From assembly GCF_000378205.1 (NCBI RefSeq), contig NZ_KB899420.1, positions 62,001 through 126,000 of the forward strand: a stretch of 64,000 nt of DNA. The letters are read 5' to 3'. Positions within the stretch are counted from its first letter, which is position 1. Each line of letters starts with the position of its first letter. The notes beneath the pieces are model-generated. The model was not told where the DNA came from and ran no database searches. It was given only the letters and a program-made list of their open reading frames with translations. Below are positions 38,907 to 53,482 of this stretch, in pieces. Origin of the DNA: Sediminispirochaeta bajacaliforniensis DSM 16054. Lineage in GTDB: Bacteria; Spirochaetota; Spirochaetia; DSM-16054; Sediminispirochaetaceae. Both the position numbers and the translations under genes were made by a program.

Positions 38907-40052
38907 CTATTTTCGTATGGAACAAATATAACAAAAAAAGCTATTTCGCTTAAGAACACACTCAAAAAGAAGCGTAAACACAAGATAGGTACTGATCGTT
39001 GACAACCCCCACACAAGGTAGTGATTCATGTTGCTCTTTAACAGAAAGAAGTTGATAAACGTAATAATAGCATAGTGAAACACATACAAGGCGAAAGAAC
39101 TTTTGGAAAGATATGCTAAAAGGGGGCTATTCTTGTAGAAATGGGTTTTGGCGAATCCCAGAATAAAAAGAATTAATGCATAAGCGGCTATTCCCCACAA
39201 CATAGCAACAAGCACCTCTTTGCCGTAGCCCTCGGGAATAAAAGAACAAAATCGCTTTACGTAGAGATATACAAGGCTTGATATCGCTCCTATGGTTCCG
39301 TACAGTTTGCTATGCCGGGCCATAACCCTAAAAATATCCTTCGACTGTCCCATGATGTAGCCAAAAATAAAAAGAGAAAAATACACTGCCTCGTTGGCCC
39401 AATCACCAATAAGCGATTGATAACCGGGGAAAAAGGGTCGCAGGCTCATCTCGAATATGACAATCACGACTCCCGGAAGTAAAATACTGTATTTTCCTGC
39501 AAGAAATCCGTTGATCTTTGCAACTATGCCTAACCTCTCCTTCAGAAAGACACAGATCGGAAGGCCGATAAGTGAGAAAACAAAAAGGTAGCCGCAATAC
39601 CAGAGTTGTGCCCAAAAAAGATACTGGTGCAATTTCAGAAAAAATTGGGGATAAAACGCAAAGAAAGAACCGGTAAACCCGTACCTGGTGGTGGCAAGGA
39701 CATACCCGGAAAGAGGGCCGATGGTCAAAACCAGAAAAACAATCGGTAAAATCAGCCGCTTGAACCGTTCGACAATAAACTCCTTCGGAGTTCTCTTTCT
39801 TAGCCCCAGATATACCGAGATTCCGGAAATGAAAAAAAGTATTCTCATAAACCAAAGGTTGAGGAAATCGGACATCAGGATATAGAACCACGAGTCTATC
39901 TTAGGTTCGATATAGATATAGGCATGCCCGATGTGGGAAAAGCTTACCGCCGTATGGTATGGCACCAATAACAAAACGACACTCACTTTGATCCAATCCA
40001 GGAAATATTCTCGTTGCGTGCCTTTTCTTAGGATCTGTTTCTGTTCGATCAT
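38907..40052 (-). CDS. Membrane acyltransferase (acyltransferase 3 family)
   Basis: About 381 aa with ten or more hydrophobic segments. The N-terminal motif YFLDWIKVSVVLLLVPYHTAVSF carries the conserved His of acyltransferase 3 proteins, followed by RILFFISGISVYLGLRKR. C-terminal SSFALYVFHYAIITFINFF fits too. Members acylate sugars or lipids of the envelope; MdoC-like proteins are the closest in layout. ATG 40052 follows AAGGGG; an ATG at 40076 is an alternative. No other polysaccharide genes are adjacent, so the substrate is open. Confidence 0.82.
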   Translation of the reverse strand: MIEQKQILRKGTQREYFLDWIKVSVVLLLVPYHTAVSFSHIGHAYIYIEPKIDSWFYILMSDFLNLWFMRILFFISGISVYLGLRKRTPKEFIVERFKRLILPIVFLVLTIGPLSGYVLATTRYGFTGSFFAFYPQFFLKLHQYLFWAQLWYCGYLFVFSLIGLPICVFLKERLGIVAKINGFLAGKYSILLPGVVIVIFEMSLRPFFPGYQSLIGDWANEAVYFSLFIFGYIMGQSKDIFRVMARHSKLYGTIGAISSLVYLYVKRFCSFIPEGYGKEVLVAMLWGIAAYALILFILGFAKTHFYKNSPLLAYLSKSSFALYVFHYAIITFINFFLLKSNMNHYLVWGLSTISTYLVFTLLFECVLKRNSFFCYICSIRK

Positions 40053-40147
40053 ATTCAATGTGCCCCTTGTAGACATTGTTTAGATAGAACGTACAGAAAC
40101 CTAACCATAAAATCATTAACATAGGATAATAGTTGGCACGAATACGA

Positions 40148-45651: not shown

Positions 45652-46431
45652 TCATTCACGCGACATGCGCTCGAGAAAATTCTTCGAATAAATGTAATTG
45701 GGCTGTTCTTTGAGTGTCGGCTGGGTAATGGTAATCTGTGTTTTCTCATTGACAAAGGAGCCGTTTACCATCGCCCCTTCGAGATTCTCGACGATAAGCA
45801 TGTAGCCGGGGATGTGTTTTGTTCCGACGCTCTGGTAGGAGGGAATGGCGGTAGTTCGAAGCAGCGTACCCGATAAGCTGTAATCCTCGGTTTTGCGCAC
45901 AAGCCCGTCGTCGCTGATCCATATGTTCATGATGGGATAGGTTACCTGATCGTTGGTGGCCTCCAGGCGCAAGAGCCAGCAATCGAAGCGGCCGAGCTTG
46001 GTCCGCTCTCCGCGAATAGCACGATAATCTTCGGCAAGGGTCGAACGGGTAAAATCGGAATTTCGGGCATTGCTGTTTTGAAAGCGGTTTTTCGAACTGG
46101 TCGAGTTGAATTTGCGGCTGTCGGGATCATAGAACCAGAGGGTATCCCCCTGCTTCAGATAGCCTTGGCCCCGGTTGATCTCAGGCTCGGAGATCAGGAT
46201 CACATATTTCTCCTCCTCGTCACGCCTGAAGATAACACATTCGGTGGTATCGCGACCTTCACCCGGAACATCACGAACGATGGTATATCGAGCCGAAAAA
46301 TCACTCTCGGGAAAGGAAACGAGGGAGTCGGCCTTTTTCAGCAAGGCCTGATAATCGACGGCAAAGAGGGGGAAGGCAGCAAAGAGTACCGCTACAGTAA
46401 AGGCCAAAAGAAAACCATATCTGCGCATCAT
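45652..46431 (-). CDS. LolA-like outer-membrane lipoprotein-sorting protein
   Basis: 259 aa with a signal peptide ending near LFAVDYQ. The mature part matches the COG2834-type LolA-like family: DFSARYTIVRDVPG, DEEEKYVILISEPEINRGQGYL, DTLWFYDPDSRKF, STLAEDYRAI, CWLLRLEA and NIWISDDGLVRKTEDY. Such periplasmic half-barrels carry lipids or lipoproteins to the outer membrane. It is the last gene of the envelope operon, overlapping the FtsX-like permease by 4 bases. It probably receives cargo from the ABC complex encoded upstream. Confidence 0.82.
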   Translation of the reverse strand: MMRRYGFLLAFTVAVLFAAFPLFAVDYQALLKKADSLVSFPESDFSARYTIVRDVPGEGRDTTECVIFRRDEEEKYVILISEPEINRGQGYLKQGDTLWFYDPDSRKFNSTSSKNRFQNSNARNSDFTRSTLAEDYRAIRGERTKLGRFDCWLLRLEATNDQVTYPIMNIWISDDGLVRKTEDYSLSGTLLRTTAIPSYQSVGTKHIPGYMLIVENLEGAMVNGSFVNEKTQITITQPTLKEQPNYIYSKNFLERMSRE

Positions 46432-47738
46432 TCACCTCCGGCAAGGACTTGAGCAAGACCGGCCCGTAGACTCTTCAGCGCCGGTCCCAACAGGGCAAGT
46501 ACCACGGCGGAAAATACAATCCCGACATTGGCAGCAATGGTTGCGGGAGAGAAATCGGCGCTGAGCCTGCCGTTTCGCAAAAATATCTCAAAGCCGGGTA
46601 TGGCATCATAGGAAAAACGGGAAAGAATGAACAGTATGACATGAGAAAAGAGGAAGCCGCAGAGGGTACTTAACAGGGTAAGAATGGCCCCTTCAAAGAA
46701 AAGAACAGCAAAGAGACTCCCCTCCCCTAAGCCCATCGCCTGCATGGTTGCAAATTCCATTCGCCGTTCGTGAAGGATAAGGCGATAGGTGAGCACGCTG
46801 CTGGTAAACACGATCAGGAGCATCATGGCAAAGAGGATGTACGAGCCGCCCTGCAAAGCAAAAAGCAGCTCTGTCACCTGGGAGACATAGACCGGCAGGG
46901 ATAGGACAAAATAGCGAACACCATCCCAGCTCCGGCTCAGCTGATAGGAAAAATCATCCCGGTTCGCCATATAGGGGGCTGCCTGCAACAGGCTTGAAAC
47001 GGCGTAGTGCAGCCGTGCGGCCTTCTCATTAATCCCCTTCAAATCGGAAAAAAGGAGCCCGGCGGAGGAGTATTCGTCAGAATCCATTCCTAAAAGCGCG
47101 TTCAGGGCCCGCCGGTCCATAAAGCTTCGGTAATAGCCGAAAAGCGAGGCATCGCTGATGATACCCGTAATTCGAAGATCGGCGCTGTTTTTTTGTCCGG
47201 TCAATGTATCGACCTGAAGCAGTACCGTATCGCCGACCCTTGCCCCAAGCAGCTTGGCAACGGGTGCGGAAATGATGATGGTATCACCGCCATCAAGATT
47301 GACCTTGCCACCCTCGCCGCGGCTCATATCCACCGCATTGAAAAGTGCTGCTTCGGCATCCCAGTCGACACCAAAGACATTCTTCTGCCTAACCGCTTTT
47401 CCGTTAAAATAGAGAACAGCCTTCTCAAAGCAGTTGGTTCGATACAGGATAGCCTGAGGATTCAGCCGGGATGCATCGATCGCCTCACCCACAGCCTCGG
47501 CATCTGCCACGCGGATCATCATCCTGTGGGAAGAGCGATCGAAGCCAAGGACAAAGAGATCGCCGCCGTAATGCAGCTGTGCAGCCTGGAAAACGGCATC
47601 GCGCATGCCTGCGGAGAGGGAGGTAATGACGGTGATAAAGGCAAACCCGAAGCTTAGGGCAATGAAAAGAAAGAGGTACTTACGAAAATGGCCGAAAAGG
47701 TAACGGGCCGAAAGAGCGGTGGCATGAAAGAATCTCAC
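46428..47738 (-). CDS. FtsX/LolE-like ABC transporter permease
   Basis: 436 aa. A first hydrophobic helix (YLFLFIALSFGFAFITVIT) is followed by a large periplasmic domain of about 220 residues and three C-terminal helices (YILFAMMLLIVFTSSVLTY, GSLFAVLFFEGAILTLLSTL, ATIAANVGIVFSAVVLALLG). This is the MacB/LolE topology, which passes substrates out of the inner membrane rather than importing them. The start is GTG 47738, right after AAG in a GGGGCTAAG context, one base after the stop of the partner permease. It likely forms a heterodimer with the next permease. Confidence 0.82.
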   Translation of the reverse strand: MRFFHATALSARYLFGHFRKYLFLFIALSFGFAFITVITSLSAGMRDAVFQAAQLHYGGDLFVLGFDRSSHRMMIRVADAEAVGEAIDASRLNPQAILYRTNCFEKAVLYFNGKAVRQKNVFGVDWDAEAALFNAVDMSRGEGGKVNLDGGDTIIISAPVAKLLGARVGDTVLLQVDTLTGQKNSADLRITGIISDASLFGYYRSFMDRRALNALLGMDSDEYSSAGLLFSDLKGINEKAARLHYAVSSLLQAAPYMANRDDFSYQLSRSWDGVRYFVLSLPVYVSQVTELLFALQGGSYILFAMMLLIVFTSSVLTYRLILHERRMEFATMQAMGLGEGSLFAVLFFEGAILTLLSTLCGFLFSHVILFILSRFSYDAIPGFEIFLRNGRLSADFSPATIAANVGIVFSAVVLALLGPALKSLRAGLAQVLAGGE

Positions 47739-47739
47739 C

Positions 47740-49185
47740 TTAGCCCCTCCTCATGGCCACAACGGGCTCGATCTGTAGGGCCTTACGGACGGGAAAGAGA
47801 GAGGCTACAAGGCCGGACGCCACGGAGAGGAGAATACTTACCAGAGCGGTATCAAGATGTGGTTCGAAGTGAAAGGTCGAACGACCGAGCAATGCCACAA
47901 CAAGAGAATTATCGATAGGCAGGGCCCGGCTGTTGACTACCCCAAAAAGCAGAGAGGCAAGAAACACACCGATTGTTCCGGAAACCAAAGCCACCGCGAC
48001 ATTCTCGCCGTAGACAAGCAGACGGATATCACGATCCTCGGCACCGACGGCCCTCAGGGTTCCGATCTCAGAAGTACGCCTGAATACGGCCACGAGAAAC
48101 ATGTTGGCAATGCCGATAATCCCCGCAATCATCACAAGGAGGTAGCCTCCGTTAAAAAGAGTCTGGAGCAGCAGGACCAACATGGCGGCAGGGCCGGCCG
48201 CCTGATGCCAGAGCACCGGCTCGGCCCCAAGAGCCGACAACTGCGGGCGGAGTTGCCTGGCAAGGGCCTTGGAAGAGGTGCCCGCAGCGGTACGAAGAAG
48301 CATAAAATTCCAGCTTCCCTCCCCCTGGCGCTTCTCCCTGGGAGAAGAGAGTTGCTTCCGCAGCTCATCGATGGAGAGATCCCCAAGATTCCCATCTGTC
48401 GCTTCCGGTTCATCGGTAAACTGCGAAGCAAAGAGATCATCAAGCTGCGTATTCGCATCGAGCAGGGAGACCGCCTCATCCGAAGGAGTAAAGTCACCGG
48501 CAACCATGACGGAGTTCAAGGCCCGGACAGTATCGGCATCGGCTATAGCCACCTCGTTCAGCAGTTCAATATCACCGCGGTAGCGATAGATCCCGCATAA
48601 GGGAAGCTCAAGAATGCGAAATCCCATCTCCCCAAGGCTGCTGAGCATCACCATATCACCGGGTGATGGGCTGCGCCCGGTCTCCCGTTTGATCTGCTGC
48701 GCCTGCTTTTCGGAAAGAAGCAGCCCCTTTTCCTGAGAACGAAGCGCGAAGCCCTCGATCACCTCTATCCCGGAGAAGAACGAAAAATAGGAGGTCGGAT
48801 CAACGCCAAAAATAAGGCTCTGGTAACGGCGGCCGGCAATATCCATGGCGGCGAAGCCGGTGAGCTGAAAGGTGTAAGCGCCGATCTTATCATTGGCATC
48901 CAGCATATCCTGGATCTCCCGGCGGTTTTTTAACACCGGAATGGAAAAAAATTCCCCGATTGCGGGATTATTGACCCCGAAGATGCTCAGGGACTCCTCG
49001 CTCTGCGGAAAAACTGCAAGGTCGCCGGTAAAATTCTCGGTATAGCTTTTCCGCAGCCCCTCTGCCGATTCCTCGAGGATGGTATTGCCGATGAAAAAAA
49101 GAAAGGTCAACATCGTAAGGAGAAGGGCGGCAAGCATATTCTTCTTCCAGTTTTTCACGAAGAATTTGATGACCAGGAAGAACAT
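47740..49185 (-). CDS. FtsX/LolC-like ABC transporter permease
   Basis: 481 aa with one N-terminal membrane helix (NMLAALLLTMLTFLFFIGN), a periplasmic domain of about 290 residues and three C-terminal helices. The conserved FtsX-domain segment MFLVAVFRRTSEIGTLRAVG and the final ALQIEPVVAMRRG (contact to the ATPase) are clear. It pairs with the 46428 permease and the LolD-like ATPase, which ends 3 bases before its start. The complex probably extracts a lipid or lipoprotein for transfer to the LolA-like carrier. Confidence 0.85.
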   Translation of the reverse strand: MFFLVIKFFVKNWKKNMLAALLLTMLTFLFFIGNTILEESAEGLRKSYTENFTGDLAVFPQSEESLSIFGVNNPAIGEFFSIPVLKNRREIQDMLDANDKIGAYTFQLTGFAAMDIAGRRYQSLIFGVDPTSYFSFFSGIEVIEGFALRSQEKGLLLSEKQAQQIKRETGRSPSPGDMVMLSSLGEMGFRILELPLCGIYRYRGDIELLNEVAIADADTVRALNSVMVAGDFTPSDEAVSLLDANTQLDDLFASQFTDEPEATDGNLGDLSIDELRKQLSSPREKRQGEGSWNFMLLRTAAGTSSKALARQLRPQLSALGAEPVLWHQAAGPAAMLVLLLQTLFNGGYLLVMIAGIIGIANMFLVAVFRRTSEIGTLRAVGAEDRDIRLLVYGENVAVALVSGTIGVFLASLLFGVVNSRALPIDNSLVVALLGRSTFHFEPHLDTALVSILLSVASGLVASLFPVRKALQIEPVVAMRRG

Positions 49186-49188
49186 AGT

Positions 49189-49881
49189 CTATCGCCCGTT
49201 TCCAAGGATCTCTCGTTCGACATTGCCGTCATGGAGGAGAATCACATGATCGGCCATATCCCTGATCACCGGATCGTGGGTGGAAAAGAGGAAGGTGGTA
49301 CCGTTATTCCGGTTGATCTCTTTCATAAGCGAAAGGATCCTCTCCCCGGTTGCCGAATCGAGGTTCGCCGTGGGTTCGTCGGCAATGACGAGGTCGGGAA
49401 CCGTCACCAGGGCCCTGGCAATAGCCACCCGCTGCTGCTGCCCGCCGGAGAGCTCTGCGGGTTTATGGTCCTCCCTGCCGTCGAGCCCTACCTTCTTAAT
49501 TACCTCACTTACCTTCTTCCGCCGCTGGGAAGAAGAAAGGGGAGAGCGGGCGATGATAAGAGGCAATTCGACATTTTCAAAAACCGATAGGACCGATATG
49601 AGGTTGAAGGATTGAAAGATGAAGCCGAGATGCTCCCGCCGGAATCGGGTACGCTCACGACGGGAAAGATCATCCATCGGGACACCTTCGATCACGAGCC
49701 GTCCGGAGGAAGGTCTGTCGAGAAGACCGATGATGTTCATCATGGTGGTCTTCCCCGATCCCGAGGGGCCGGCGACGGCGACAAAATCCCCCTTCTTGAT
49801 TTTGATCGAAATTCCGCTGAGAGCCGCCACTTCGGAACTGCCCCGCTGATAGCTTTTGGTAATAGCGTCGAGTGTGATCAT
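49189..49881 (-). CDS. LolD/MacB-type ABC transporter ATPase
   Basis: 230 aa from ATG 49881, which overlaps the glycosyltransferase stop (ATGA); the longer frame to 49998 is not family-like. Walker A GPSGSGKTTMMN is at about 39-50, Q-loop FIFQSFNLISVLSVFENVELP, signature LSGGQQQRVAIARAL, Walker B DLVIADEPTANLDS and H-loop LFSTHDP. The spacing and the ENVELP segment are those of LolD/MacB ATPases. It powers the two FtsX-like permeases that follow. Confidence 0.9.
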   Translation of the reverse strand: MITLDAITKSYQRGSSEVAALSGISIKIKKGDFVAVAGPSGSGKTTMMNIIGLLDRPSSGRLVIEGVPMDDLSRRERTRFRREHLGFIFQSFNLISVLSVFENVELPLIIARSPLSSSQRRKKVSEVIKKVGLDGREDHKPAELSGGQQQRVAIARALVTVPDLVIADEPTANLDSATGERILSLMKEINRNNGTTFLFSTHDPVIRDMADHVILLHDGNVEREILGNGR

Positions 49882-50642
49882 AACAGGTATTTGGCAAATC
49901 CTTTCACTGCATAAACACAGAATTTTTCCAGCGAGGAGAAAAACGAAAAACCGTAGGTCCTTCGATAGAGCTGCCACTGAAGCCCGGCCGATTTCCACTT
50001 ATTCCCGGTAAGAGATTCCGAAAAGACCCGAAAACGTACCAGATCACGCTTCAGGCCGTAGACAAAACCGTGGGCCTTCACGATGCTCAGAAAAAAGTGG
50101 TAGTCGTCCCGCCCCACCGGCGCCTGGTGGGACTGCCTGATATCGCCGGTAATGGAACGGTCGAACATGGCAGAAGAGGCACAGATGTGATCGGAATGCA
50201 GCAGCCGTCGATAGGAGCCGTATTCGGGGATCGGAATGGTGATACCGGTGGTAAGGGAGCCTTCCCGGGTGATCTTCTTATATCCGGTACAGGATAAAGG
50301 CGCCCCGCTTCTTTTCATGGCAGCGACCTGAAGTTCCAGCTTTTCGGGAAGCCATAGATCGTCCGCATCGATAAAAGCGATAAAACGGCCTCTGGCAGCC
50401 TCAAAACCAACATTGCGGGCCGCGATGGGTCCCTTGTTGGCAGGAAGTCTGACGATCTTCACCTTTTCGTTGTCACCGACAGCCTTCTGCAAGACAGCAA
50501 CGGAGTCGTCCTGGGACCCATCATCCACCACGATCCATTCATACGCTTCATAGCTTTGAGCAAGGACAGACCGTGCCGTTGCCGCAATAAACTCCTCCGC
50601 ATTGTAGAGGGGAGTGATAATCGACACCAGATCATCTTCCAT
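49878..50642 (-). CDS. Family 2 glycosyltransferase
   Basis: 254 aa. The GT-A nucleotide-binding region SIITPLYNAEEFIAATARSV, IVVDDGSQDDS and the metal motif AFIDADDLW are present. Residues 110-200 carry the acceptor part (SSAMFDRSITGDI, GRDDYHFFLSIV). No membrane segment is obvious, so it works on the cytoplasmic side. It adds a sugar to an envelope glycan or lipid; the acceptor is not known. Its start overlaps the barrel gene stop (TAATG) and its stop overlaps the ATPase start, so all are translated together. Confidence 0.87.
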   Translation of the reverse strand: MEDDLVSIITPLYNAEEFIAATARSVLAQSYEAYEWIVVDDGSQDDSVAVLQKAVGDNEKVKIVRLPANKGPIAARNVGFEAARGRFIAFIDADDLWLPEKLELQVAAMKRSGAPLSCTGYKKITREGSLTTGITIPIPEYGSYRRLLHSDHICASSAMFDRSITGDIRQSHQAPVGRDDYHFFLSIVKAHGFVYGLKRDLVRFRVFSESLTGNKWKSAGLQWQLYRRTYGFSFFSSLEKFCVYAVKGFAKYLL

Positions 50643-51922
50643 TACCAGTTCCTTTTGATCGTCCCGGAAAGCCGGACGGCAAACACAAAAAAGGCCCGCC
50701 GGTCGTTCGCGTCGGGATTATCAACATAGTATCCGCCCGTCTTTGGCCCGAAGACCAGAGGAGCGGCAATATAGCATTGTAGCTCAGGGTAAAGCTTTAT
50801 GCGAGCCCCGGGGATAAGCAGCATGGAATCGGTATATTGGTTGTACCGCCCCTGGAGAAAAAAACTCGTCGAAGGCGAAGCCTTGAACCCGAGGTTGAGG
50901 GCATAGTTGTGGCCATAATAGAGGGGATAGGTAACATCGACAAGCTCCAGCTCACTTTCCTCCCCGTTGAAAAAGTACTCACCCTGGAGCTGGAGACGTT
51001 CGTCGAAAAAATCGATATACAAGCCGATATTGGCAGAAAGGTCGTCGACGTTGTCGATCTTTTCCTTCCCGGCGATGATGGCCGTCGTCTCCTCGCCGTC
51101 CATGGCATGGGCCCACAGCCCCTCCTGATAAAGCTCGATCCGATCAAAGAGGGTGGTTTTCAGCGAGTAAAAGGCGCGATTGTTCATTTCACCGTGGTAA
51201 AAATCACCCACTGTGAGGTCGAAGAGCTTGTTTGCGATGTTGATCTTCCCGCCGAAGCCGACCTCAGATGTTTGGGGGTGCTCCGGGTCGTCAAGGAAGC
51301 CATTTCGTGTCAGGGCAAGAAGTTCCACGCCGCCGGTTCCCAGGGGGTAGTCGACTTTCAGGCTATAGGAGCGTTCAGGGAAATCGTCCCGGATGTCGTT
51401 GAAATCATCGGAGAGGCGGGCGGGAAGGTCGGTAAAGGGAAAGATGGGGGAAATCCCCCAGGAGACCTTTTGGATACCGAAACGCATGAAAAGAAGATTT
51501 CCAAGGGTGTAATCGCCGAAGAGCTCGGGAATATCAAACAGGTAATCAGGATGTTCGATTCTGTAGGATTGGAAAACGCGGAAACGAGAGTTTATCCTGG
51601 TATCGAAGGAGATGGTGGCATCGGCGTCGTAGATAACCAGGTCGCTAAAATCATCAAATTCAAGTTCCGGCGAGTAGCCAAAGGAAAAGTTGTACTGGCC
51701 CTTAAAGAAAAAGCGATCGTCATCGAGAAGCGTGCTCAGCACATCATTGCTTTCCGCAGCCTCAGGAGGCGATTGGACCTCCGGCTCCGTGGTATCCTGC
51801 TGTTCGCTTTCCGCAGGCAGCTCGAAAAGGTCATCAATGTTTACACCGTTATGATCATCGTCCGCAGCAAGAGGAAAGAAGGCGAAGCACAGAAGAACCA
51901 CAACGAGAAATAGCGTTCGCAT
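50642..51922 (-). CDS. Predicted outer-membrane beta-barrel protein
   Basis: 426 aa with a signal peptide (MRTLFLVVVLLCFAFFPLAA), an acidic, Glu/Gln-rich linker (about 21-65) and then repeated amphipathic strands with aromatic ends (FFFKGQYNFSFGYSPELEF, SRFRVFQSYRIEHPDYLF, SLKVDYPLGTGGVELLALTR, AFFVFAVRLSGTIKRNW). The last strand ends in an aromatic residue, as usual for barrels. I do not recognise the family. It lies directly upstream of the glycosyltransferase and the Lol-like ABC genes, so it may be the outer-membrane component of that system. Confidence 0.65.
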   Translation of the reverse strand: MRTLFLVVVLLCFAFFPLAADDDHNGVNIDDLFELPAESEQQDTTEPEVQSPPEAAESNDVLSTLLDDDRFFFKGQYNFSFGYSPELEFDDFSDLVIYDADATISFDTRINSRFRVFQSYRIEHPDYLFDIPELFGDYTLGNLLFMRFGIQKVSWGISPIFPFTDLPARLSDDFNDIRDDFPERSYSLKVDYPLGTGGVELLALTRNGFLDDPEHPQTSEVGFGGKINIANKLFDLTVGDFYHGEMNNRAFYSLKTTLFDRIELYQEGLWAHAMDGEETTAIIAGKEKIDNVDDLSANIGLYIDFFDERLQLQGEYFFNGEESELELVDVTYPLYYGHNYALNLGFKASPSTSFFLQGRYNQYTDSMLLIPGARIKLYPELQCYIAAPLVFGPKTGGYYVDNPDANDRRAFFVFAVRLSGTIKRNW

Positions 51923-51930
51923 ACCTACCC

Positions 51931-52959
51931 CTAACCCATGATTTTTTTATATACATCTACCCCTTTCTTGCGAAGGGTAATATAGATACTAAACACTTTT
52001 ATCATATTTTTGTAAACAATGTAAAATGCAATCCTTTGGTCTCTTCGGAGGAATCGTTTCCGGCGCTTTTTCTCTGAGGGATGGGCATGCAGCAGGCGGT
52101 TACAATCGAGAAAAAAGACCTTTCGTTCCTTGCAATCCAGCCTGTCCCAGACCCAGTAGGCATTATTCAGCATCATGATAATGAAGTCTATCCCATGTTG
52201 GTCCCAGAGACCACGGGAAGTGATGAAATCGGCCATAAAACCGAAATGAGCGATGAAGGCAAGGAATTTGGTACCTCCCCCTTCCATGGATTGTCCTGTT
52301 CGAAAGAGGCGATGGTAGTAAAGGGGTTTGTCGATAAGGATAACCCGGCGGGCGGCCAGGACGGTAAAGAAGTGAAAGGGGGTGTCCTCAAAAAAAAACT
52401 CCCCTTCAGGGAAGAAAAGCTGTTGGCTGAGAAGAAAATCCCGACGGTAGAGCTTACGCCAGGGCACGGGCGAGAGGAGAAGAAGTGCCCTTCTACTCTC
52501 CTCATCGAGGGCGACAGGAGCCGACAGGGCAAGGCCGCTCCAGTGGTGACGGTCGTAGGCGGCAATGGGCTCACCTCCCTCTGGTGCGGTATAGAAATCA
52601 CAAAGGGAAAAGTCGGCCTCACTCTCCTCCGCCGCCCGGTAGAGGGTTTCAAAGAGCTCAGGCTCAACCCAGTCGTCGCCGTCGGTAAATCCCACGTAGC
52701 GGCCCCTGGCCTGGCGAATACCGATATTCGACGGGATGCCTGTACCTCCCGGGCTGTTCTCGGAAAGCGGAATACAATGGATGCGCGTATCCATTTCGGC
52801 ATAGCGTTCGGCAATGTCACGGCTGCCATCGGTAGATGCATCGTCTATGACGATGATCTCCAGATCCTCAAGGCTCTGTGCAAGCAGAGAGTCGAGACAG
52901 CGCTCAAGATAGGGCGCGGTATTGTATACGGTAACGATAACCGAAACGGCTGGAGCCAT
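51931..52959 (-). CDS. Family 2 glycosyltransferase
   Basis: 342 aa. The N-terminal GT-A fold has VSVIVTVYNTAPYLERCLDS, IIVIDDASTDGSRD, the family-typical TGIPSNIGIRQARGRYVGFTD and the metal motif FTDGDDWVEPE. A C-terminal region rich in Arg/Lys and aromatic residues (CNRLLHAHPSEKKRRKRF) may touch the membrane. It makes an envelope glycan or glycolipid. It is the first gene of the envelope operon, 8 bases before the barrel gene. GAGGTG lies upstream of the ATG. Confidence 0.87.
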   Translation of the reverse strand: MAPAVSVIVTVYNTAPYLERCLDSLLAQSLEDLEIIVIDDASTDGSRDIAERYAEMDTRIHCIPLSENSPGGTGIPSNIGIRQARGRYVGFTDGDDWVEPELFETLYRAAEESEADFSLCDFYTAPEGGEPIAAYDRHHWSGLALSAPVALDEESRRALLLLSPVPWRKLYRRDFLLSQQLFFPEGEFFFEDTPFHFFTVLAARRVILIDKPLYYHRLFRTGQSMEGGGTKFLAFIAHFGFMADFITSRGLWDQHGIDFIIMMLNNAYWVWDRLDCKERKVFFLDCNRLLHAHPSEKKRRKRFLRRDQRIAFYIVYKNMIKVFSIYITLRKKGVDVYKKIMG

Positions 52960-53034
52960 GTGGTTTTAGCACCTCAGTCCTTTTGATCTGTATAACACCA
53001 TATAATTTCACCTCAAAAATAACGAAAGAAGCAA

Positions 53035-53274
53035 TTAAAGCTTCCCACAGGGAGCATCATCCTTTTTAATAAGCGGTTTAAGCAGATATTCAAGGCCGTT
53101 GCATTTTATTTCCAGCATCATGGACATACACCGCCCCAATTCTCCGTTGGGAAGGCCTTTGTTTACGAACCACAGAAAATACTCTTCGGGTATCTGCAGT
53201 AACAATCTGTCTTTATACTTACCGAAGGGCATTCGATAATTAGCTAATTTTACAAGACCCTCATGATCTATCAT
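53035..53274 (-). CDS. DUF3820 family small protein
   Basis: About 79 aa from ATG 53274; an upstream ATG at 53316 adds 14 residues without a better ribosome site. The DUF3820 core is plain: YRMPFGKYKDRLLLQIPEEY, LWFVNKGLPNGELG and LEIKCNGLEYLLKPL. No established function exists for the family. It stands alone, between the envelope operon and a sugar operon, and is cytoplasmic by sequence. Confidence 0.7.
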   Translation of the reverse strand: MIDHEGLVKLANYRMPFGKYKDRLLLQIPEEYFLWFVNKGLPNGELGRCMSMMLEIKCNGLEYLLKPLIKKDDAPCGKL

Positions 53275-53432
53275 AGCACGACTATACATGAAGCCATGGA
53301 AGTTGCCCATATGCAAACAAAAAATTTGAAAAAGATATCAGAGCAGGCCATTATAAAGGATCAGATCAGGTTTTTAGTGAAATACGTCGGAACTATAATT
53401 TTGATAAAACATAGATAAAAAAGAACTATAAA

Positions 53433-53461
53433 TAGACGTATCGCTATCAACGATACGTCTA
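53433..53461 (-). terminator. Rho-independent terminator of the 53483-59141 sugar operon
   Basis: TAGACGTATCG (53433-53443) and CGATACGTCTA (53451-53461) form a perfect 11-bp stem with a 7-base loop. On the minus strand it is followed by TTTATAGTTCTTTTTT. It lies 22 bases after the isomerase stop. Confidence 0.85.
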
Positions 53462-53482
53462 ATGCGGGAAAAAAGAAGCATA

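Follow-up and report, generated by a model that had tools for sequence, protein, structure and literature searches.

The window analysed here is a 64,000-nt stretch of the Sediminispirochaeta bajacaliforniensis genome (4.57 Mb), in which seven minus-strand genes, all real and intact, occupy positions 52959-45652. From 5' to 3' they encode a family 2 glycosyltransferase (GT2a), an outer-membrane beta-barrel, a second family 2 glycosyltransferase (GT2b), a LolD-like ATPase, two FtsX permeases (FtsX1 and FtsX2) and a LolA_like carrier (Table 1). The successive junctions are an 8-nt gap, a 1-nt overlap, a 4-nt overlap, a 3-nt gap, a 1-nt gap and a 4-nt overlap. A first-pass annotation had proposed a tight operon of these seven genes, and the open reading frames, the Pfam assignments and the predicted barrel bear it out.

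Table 1. Features of the seven-gene operon, listed 5' to 3' with window coordinates.
Feature	Coordinates	Strand	Evidence
GT2a, family 2 glycosyltransferase, 342 aa	51931..52959	-	PF00535 122 bits; DGDD motif
Barrel, predicted outer-membrane beta-barrel, 426 aa, signal peptide, C-terminal W	50642..51922	-	AF2 model; homologues adjoin LolA_like phylum-wide
DDLF motif in barrel, residues 31-34 (ORF numbering; F33 or F34 depending on start)	51821..51832	-	Conserved [DE]x[LIMFV]F after signal peptide
GT2b, family 2 glycosyltransferase, 254 aa	49878..50642	-	PF00535 127.7 bits; DADD motif
LolD-like ATPase, 230 aa	49189..49881	-	ABC_tran 115 bits; TIGR02211 227.9 bits
FtsX1, type VII ABC permease, 481 aa	47740..49185	-	PF02687 FtsX 63.7 bits; orthologues in alignment A3
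FtsX2, type VII ABC permease, 436 aa, LolE-like fold (predicted)	46428..47738	-	PF02687 FtsX 45.3 bits; PF12704 MacB_PCD 35.6 bits
LolA_like periplasmic carrier, 259 aa, signal peptide	45652..46431	-	PF17131 109.6 bits; clade-A insertion in GAMVNGSFVN

Pfam assigns families to six of the seven proteins, the barrel being the exception. Both glycosyltransferases retain an intact DxDD motif, and the ATPase has intact Walker A, LSGGQ and Walker B motifs; its start was set at ATG 49881, rather than that of a longer GTG reading frame from 49998, because homologues begin there. The top-scoring NCBIfam model for GT2a, PRK10073, remained under its cut-off. Among the seven proteins there was no Pfam match to TPR, MMPL, DUF1329 or DUF1302, and no adaptor family of the MacA type; the ATPase is a separate gene, not fused to MacB.

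Predicted folds and the resident Lol and Lpt genes

The AF2 model of FtsX2 (pLDDT 87.4) matched LolE with Z 26.7 (rmsd 4.1, 389 residues aligned) and MacB with Z 18.7, and on this model the protein is predicted to have a LolE-type permease fold, nearer to LolE than to MacB. The carrier profile matched NE2245 (3buu), which belongs to the LolA superfamily (E 6.5e-32). With matches admitted up to E 0.1, the window carrier still hit only PF17131 and not PF03548. By eye, its signal peptide has no lipobox, and we thus read the protein as a soluble carrier.

The barrel had no match when its sequence profile was compared with the PDB, and the sole NCBIfam model it matched lay far under that model's cut-off. 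Its AF2 model (pLDDT 71, pTM 0.70) has about 18 strands (DSSP) over residues 71-425, preceded by an acidic, low-confidence N-terminal stretch (residues 13-67) that we read as a disordered tail (about residues 21-67). Among the fold matches listed were OprD (Z 20.3), Wzi (19.4) and AlgE (19.3), with MOMP also within about one Z unit; the matches listed are porins, and no Omp85 protein is among them, which excludes nothing. Since OprD, AlgE, Wzi and MOMP are tied within about one Z unit, the fold can be called porin-like, and naming a family by fold was dropped. In 27 of 33 barrels the motif [DE]x[LIMFV]F lies no more than 35 residues past the predicted signal peptide; among other ORFs with a signal peptide the count is 17 of 375 (signal peptides being called by a crude in-house rule). 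The motif's phenylalanine is invariant in alignment A1. By analogy with the TonB box, this motif may be a carrier-docking site, and so may connect carrier and barrel.

Elsewhere in the genome we found a LolCE-like pair (C10; 204 and 176 bits, better than the window permeases) and a canonical PF03548 LolA (C5:187533), and on these grounds housekeeping Lol identity was rejected for the operon. The score of the window ATPase against the LolD equivalog TIGR02211 (227.9 bits) does not reach the cut-off of 307.75, nor does that of FtsX2 against the LolCE equivalog (49.9 of 362.45 bits). LptF_LptG matches in the genome lie only on C16, outside the operon, and LpxC was not detected in this genome. The genome holds five LolA_like genes, alongside two systems of the MMPL type and another two with FtsX. 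The additional loci (G000; L037-L040 on C21, C1 and C5) comprise MMPL with LolA_like (L037), MMPL with LolA_like and a DUF1302 barrel (L038), LolD-FtsX-FtsX-LolA_like-barrel-like (L039) and LolA_like-barrel-FtsX-FtsX (L040).

A conserved five-gene core in two clades

The first-pass annotation had suggested searching other spirochaetes for the same gene order. In full, this order was seen in two species only, the window's own and G001 (4,653,970 bp), a congener with 94% DNA identity over the operon. What is present phylum-wide, in two classes of Spirochaetota, is a five-gene core in a different order, composed of the LolD-like ATPase, two LolE-type FtsX permeases, the LolA_like carrier and the outer-membrane barrel; this core is a well-supported conserved module. 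Its usual arrangement in other spirochaete families is LolD-FtsX1-FtsX2-LolA_like-barrel, mostly without glycosyltransferases. The genus of the window departs from this: its barrel gene has been relocated upstream, between the two GT2 genes, and this barrel-first order is confined to the genus. GT2 genes flank few cassettes, and GT2a has no fixed place; a GT2b homologue, 55% identical, adjoins the barrel in L036, and pieces with 42-47% identity are found in L044. A fixed seven-gene system was rejected on account of the few flanking GT2s and the genus-specific order.

Carriers matching the LolA_like profile (E up to 1e-10) were found in 109 of the 247 genomes of the phylum, a count that takes in paralogous LolA_like proteins; at this threshold there was no match in the small f20 genomes or in G111. 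Even barrel relatives found with E values of only 1e-4 to 1e-9 directly adjoin LolA_like in the loci fetched, and this synteny supports the distant homologies. A scan of the genome contigs with the barrel returned only one new relative. The objection that the barrel might be a common unrelated porin fails, since barrel and carrier genes travel together. The annotation's idea of Lol-like export through all envelope layers likewise holds up, given the predicted LolE-type fold, the LolA-superfamily carrier and a barrel co-conserved with that carrier across the phylum.

A related module on an Alphaproteobacterial plasmid consists of an ATPase, one FtsX, a LolA_like carrier and a 480-aa protein that weakly matches the barrel profile, followed by a two-component system. 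In Aliiroseovarius (L090:11317-14678), genes for a transglutaminase, an ectoine synthase and a ketosynthase adjoin the module, and these neighbours suggest a polyketide or a lipid as its possible cargo.

A tree of the carrier and both permeases revealed a fully supported split between clade A (17 rows, including the window) and clade B (15 rows). Clade-A carriers have an insertion of about eight residues, lying within GAMVNGSFVN in the window, which is missing in clade B, in the plasmid homologues and in paralogue L039; the fragmented MAG locus L044 was not typable by this feature. Both clades occur in at least seven genomes (G049, G055, G058, G231, G245, G262 and G288), with G055, G262, G245 and the second G231 copy assigned to clade by the insertion, and this co-occurrence indicates that the split is an old paralogy.

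At many clade-A loci (L051, L073, L079, L080, L138, L141, L144 and L145) the gene for the LolD-like ATPase has been shifted past the barrel and onto the other strand, whereas clade-B cassettes keep it as their first gene. Clade-B type cassettes at L048, L049, L055, L056 and L070, together with that on the Aliiroseovarius plasmid (L090), are followed by genes for an OmpR-type regulator and a histidine kinase, which may form an envelope stress circuit.

Linkage of clade A to glycan genes

The neighbours of cassette loci include RmlA, RmlB, RmlC, RmlD, UDP-glucose dehydrogenase (UGD), WecA-type transferases, ManC, Wzx, Wzz/GNVR, SLBB, Wzi, TagF-like and GT2 proteins. At least one glycan neighbour was found at 13 of 35 cassette loci and in 1 of 40 random regions (p 1.1e-4), a test that is partly post hoc because the reference families were chosen after some loci had been seen. 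For at least two such neighbours the counts were 11/35 and 0/40 (p 8.5e-5). The random regions were drawn from ten of the genomes, and same-locus references were excluded.

This linkage follows the clades. Glycan-linked loci make up 14 of the 17 rows of clade A and none of the 15 of clade B, and the linkage label changes 3 times on the tree, as against 10.7 in shuffles. In 20 new loci, scored with a reference set fixed beforehand, glycan neighbours accompanied six of the eight carriers with the insertion and one of the 12 without it (p 0.0044), these loci being partly non-independent, with many from one family (f25). Clade-A loci without glycan neighbours are L071, L072, L081, L142 and L143. 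The annotation's proposal that the operon could build and export a glycolipid or glycosylated lipoprotein stands in part: the statistical link to sugars, with clade A in polysaccharide loci, is upheld, and the GT2s as a fixed part are not.

Proteins of ~290 aa with a weak Wzz match are encoded just upstream of three clade-A cassettes (L043:4631-5539, L073:4496-5359 and L080:10967-11860), and are homologous to proteins of L046 and L078 that have no Wzz match.

A candidate export route and its rivals

The outer membrane of most spirochaetes lacks LPS, and little is known of the route by which surface glycolipids and glycans get there. In the open-access literature we found no paper in which polysaccharide loci of spirochaetes are tied to a barrel and a LolA-like carrier, and nothing usable on glycolipid transport in treponemes or on LolA together with exopolysaccharide. 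The cassette is a candidate for cell-surface building in LPS-free spirochaetes, and the comparison yields a defined phylum-wide gene set, with the carrier insertion as a marker separating its two versions.

Our preferred reading, whose chances we put a little short of even, is that the cassette is a trans-envelope exporter of an amphiphilic, probably glycan-bearing lipid. The lipid nature of the cargo is well supported; that the cargo carries sugar is something we infer. In this genus and some others, cytoplasmic GT2s would add sugars to a membrane-held acceptor, of which their GT2 identity gives no indication. Judging from the predicted fold, the LolD-like ATPase and FtsX1/FtsX2 would act by mechanotransmission, in the manner of LolCDE, to pull cargo with a lipid anchor out of the inner membrane's outer leaflet. 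The cargo would then pass to the soluble LolA_like protein, which may shield its acyl chains across the periplasm, and the insertion observed in clade-A carriers may be an adaptation to glycan-linked cargo. At the outer membrane the carrier would dock on the barrel, perhaps via [DE]x[LIMFV]F in the flexible tail, and the barrel would either insert the cargo or pass its head group outward. The cargo might be a lipid-anchored glycan or an acylated partner of glycan assembly, with clade A as the glycan-linked paralogue and clade B taking some other cargo.

Such a scheme would amount to an Lpt-like pathway assembled out of Lol-type components in an organism where no LpxC was detected. Like LptB2FGC-A-DE, it would be an ATP-driven lipid route from inner to outer membrane with a large barrel at its end; unlike Lpt, the window has other permease and carrier families and a putative soluble shuttle rather than a bridge, and the LptF/G genes, which may be alternative glycolipid carriers, lie elsewhere. 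With E. coli LolCDE-LolA-LolB it would share a type VII ABC exporter with two permeases that delivers lipid cargo to a LolA-fold carrier. It differs in having a carrier of PF17131 and not PF03548, a barrel gene beside the carrier, and a separate Lol system in the same organism. A more specific version is possible but rather doubtful: in spirochaetes that lack LPS, clade A would supply the outer membrane with glycolipids or lipid-anchored surface polysaccharides by an Lpt-like route of Lol parts. The 18-strand barrel would present a carrier-docking box in its disordered tail, and the clade would derive from a clade-B cassette moving another lipid.

The main rival to a glycolipid exporter is a second, dedicated lipoprotein-sorting route, in which the cassette would bring a small set of acylated proteins, in clade A those of polysaccharide assembly, to the outer membrane or the cell surface, and the barrel would act as a LolB substitute or surface flippase. 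Gene linkage speaks for a shared process and not for a shared substrate, and a lipoprotein of a polysaccharide pathway could be the cargo. The nearest folds, LolE and the LolA superfamily, and the absence of a LolB-like gene from the cassette agree with such a route, which has been proposed for Borrelia BBJ23-29. This nearest published case, of unknown cargo and reported as confined to Borrelia, has in common with ours a spirochaete host and a clustered LolD-like ATPase, FtsX permease of LolE-like fold, LolA-like carrier and outer-membrane barrel, but its barrel is described as being of the Omp85 type, and it has one homodimeric permease, two TPR proteins and no reported glycan link (PMC13078400). 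The window operon, in contrast, has two permeases, a barrel predicted to be porin-like, GT2s and no TPR protein among its seven genes. We consider a lipoprotein route unlikely, as the genome already has its separate LolCE pair and PF03548 LolA, the scores stay short of the LolD/LolCE equivalog cut-offs, and no neighbour, judged by family, is constantly adjacent to the cassettes.

Alternatively, the barrel could be a polysaccharide secretion pore of the AlgE or EpsX/Wzp type, with the Lol-like parts as accessories. AlgE and Wzi do lie within about one Z unit of the top matches, and clade A is found in EPS loci, two of them with SLBB proteins. The EpsX/EpsY composite OPX/beta-barrel translocon is the nearest barrel-in-EPS-locus system; it has an 18-strand barrel in polysaccharide loci, the window barrel being predicted to have about 18 strands, and requires an OPX partner (PMC9601211). 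No match to Poly_export (PF02563) was found in the window's genome, whereas controls were positive in five genomes, and an OPX/barrel translocon was rejected for this reason. The same barrel family is also paired with the carrier in clade B, which has no glycan genes, and a weakly matching barrel is paired with it on the Alphaproteobacterial plasmid, so a secretion pore appears improbable. More improbable still is efflux of hydrophobic small molecules in the manner of MacAB-TolC or AmeABCD, even though type VII permeases include MacB (Z 18.7) and the genome has MMPL, LolA_like and DUF1302 genes together. AmeABCD, which is tied to monoterpene export, and the MMPL + DUF1329 + DUF1302 systems resemble the cassette in joining an inner-membrane transporter, a LolA-superfamily carrier and a barrel, but AmeABCD has an RND/MMPL motor in place of an ABC transporter, and its carrier and barrel families differ (PMC6394551). 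Against efflux stand the permease fold, predicted to be nearer LolE, a cassette that encodes neither MacA nor TolC, and the glycan linkage of clade A.

In the congener G001, an acyltransferase-3 (Acyl_transf_3) gene lies between an isomerase gene and GT2a (L041:7167-8567) and overlaps the GT2a start, which fits a modified glycan; the window, without that gene there, has a 93-aa PF12843 (QSregVF_b) ORF between the isomerase gene and GT2a (52950-53464). At 38907-40076 the window encodes a 389-aa membrane protein that is acyltransferase-3-like by eye.
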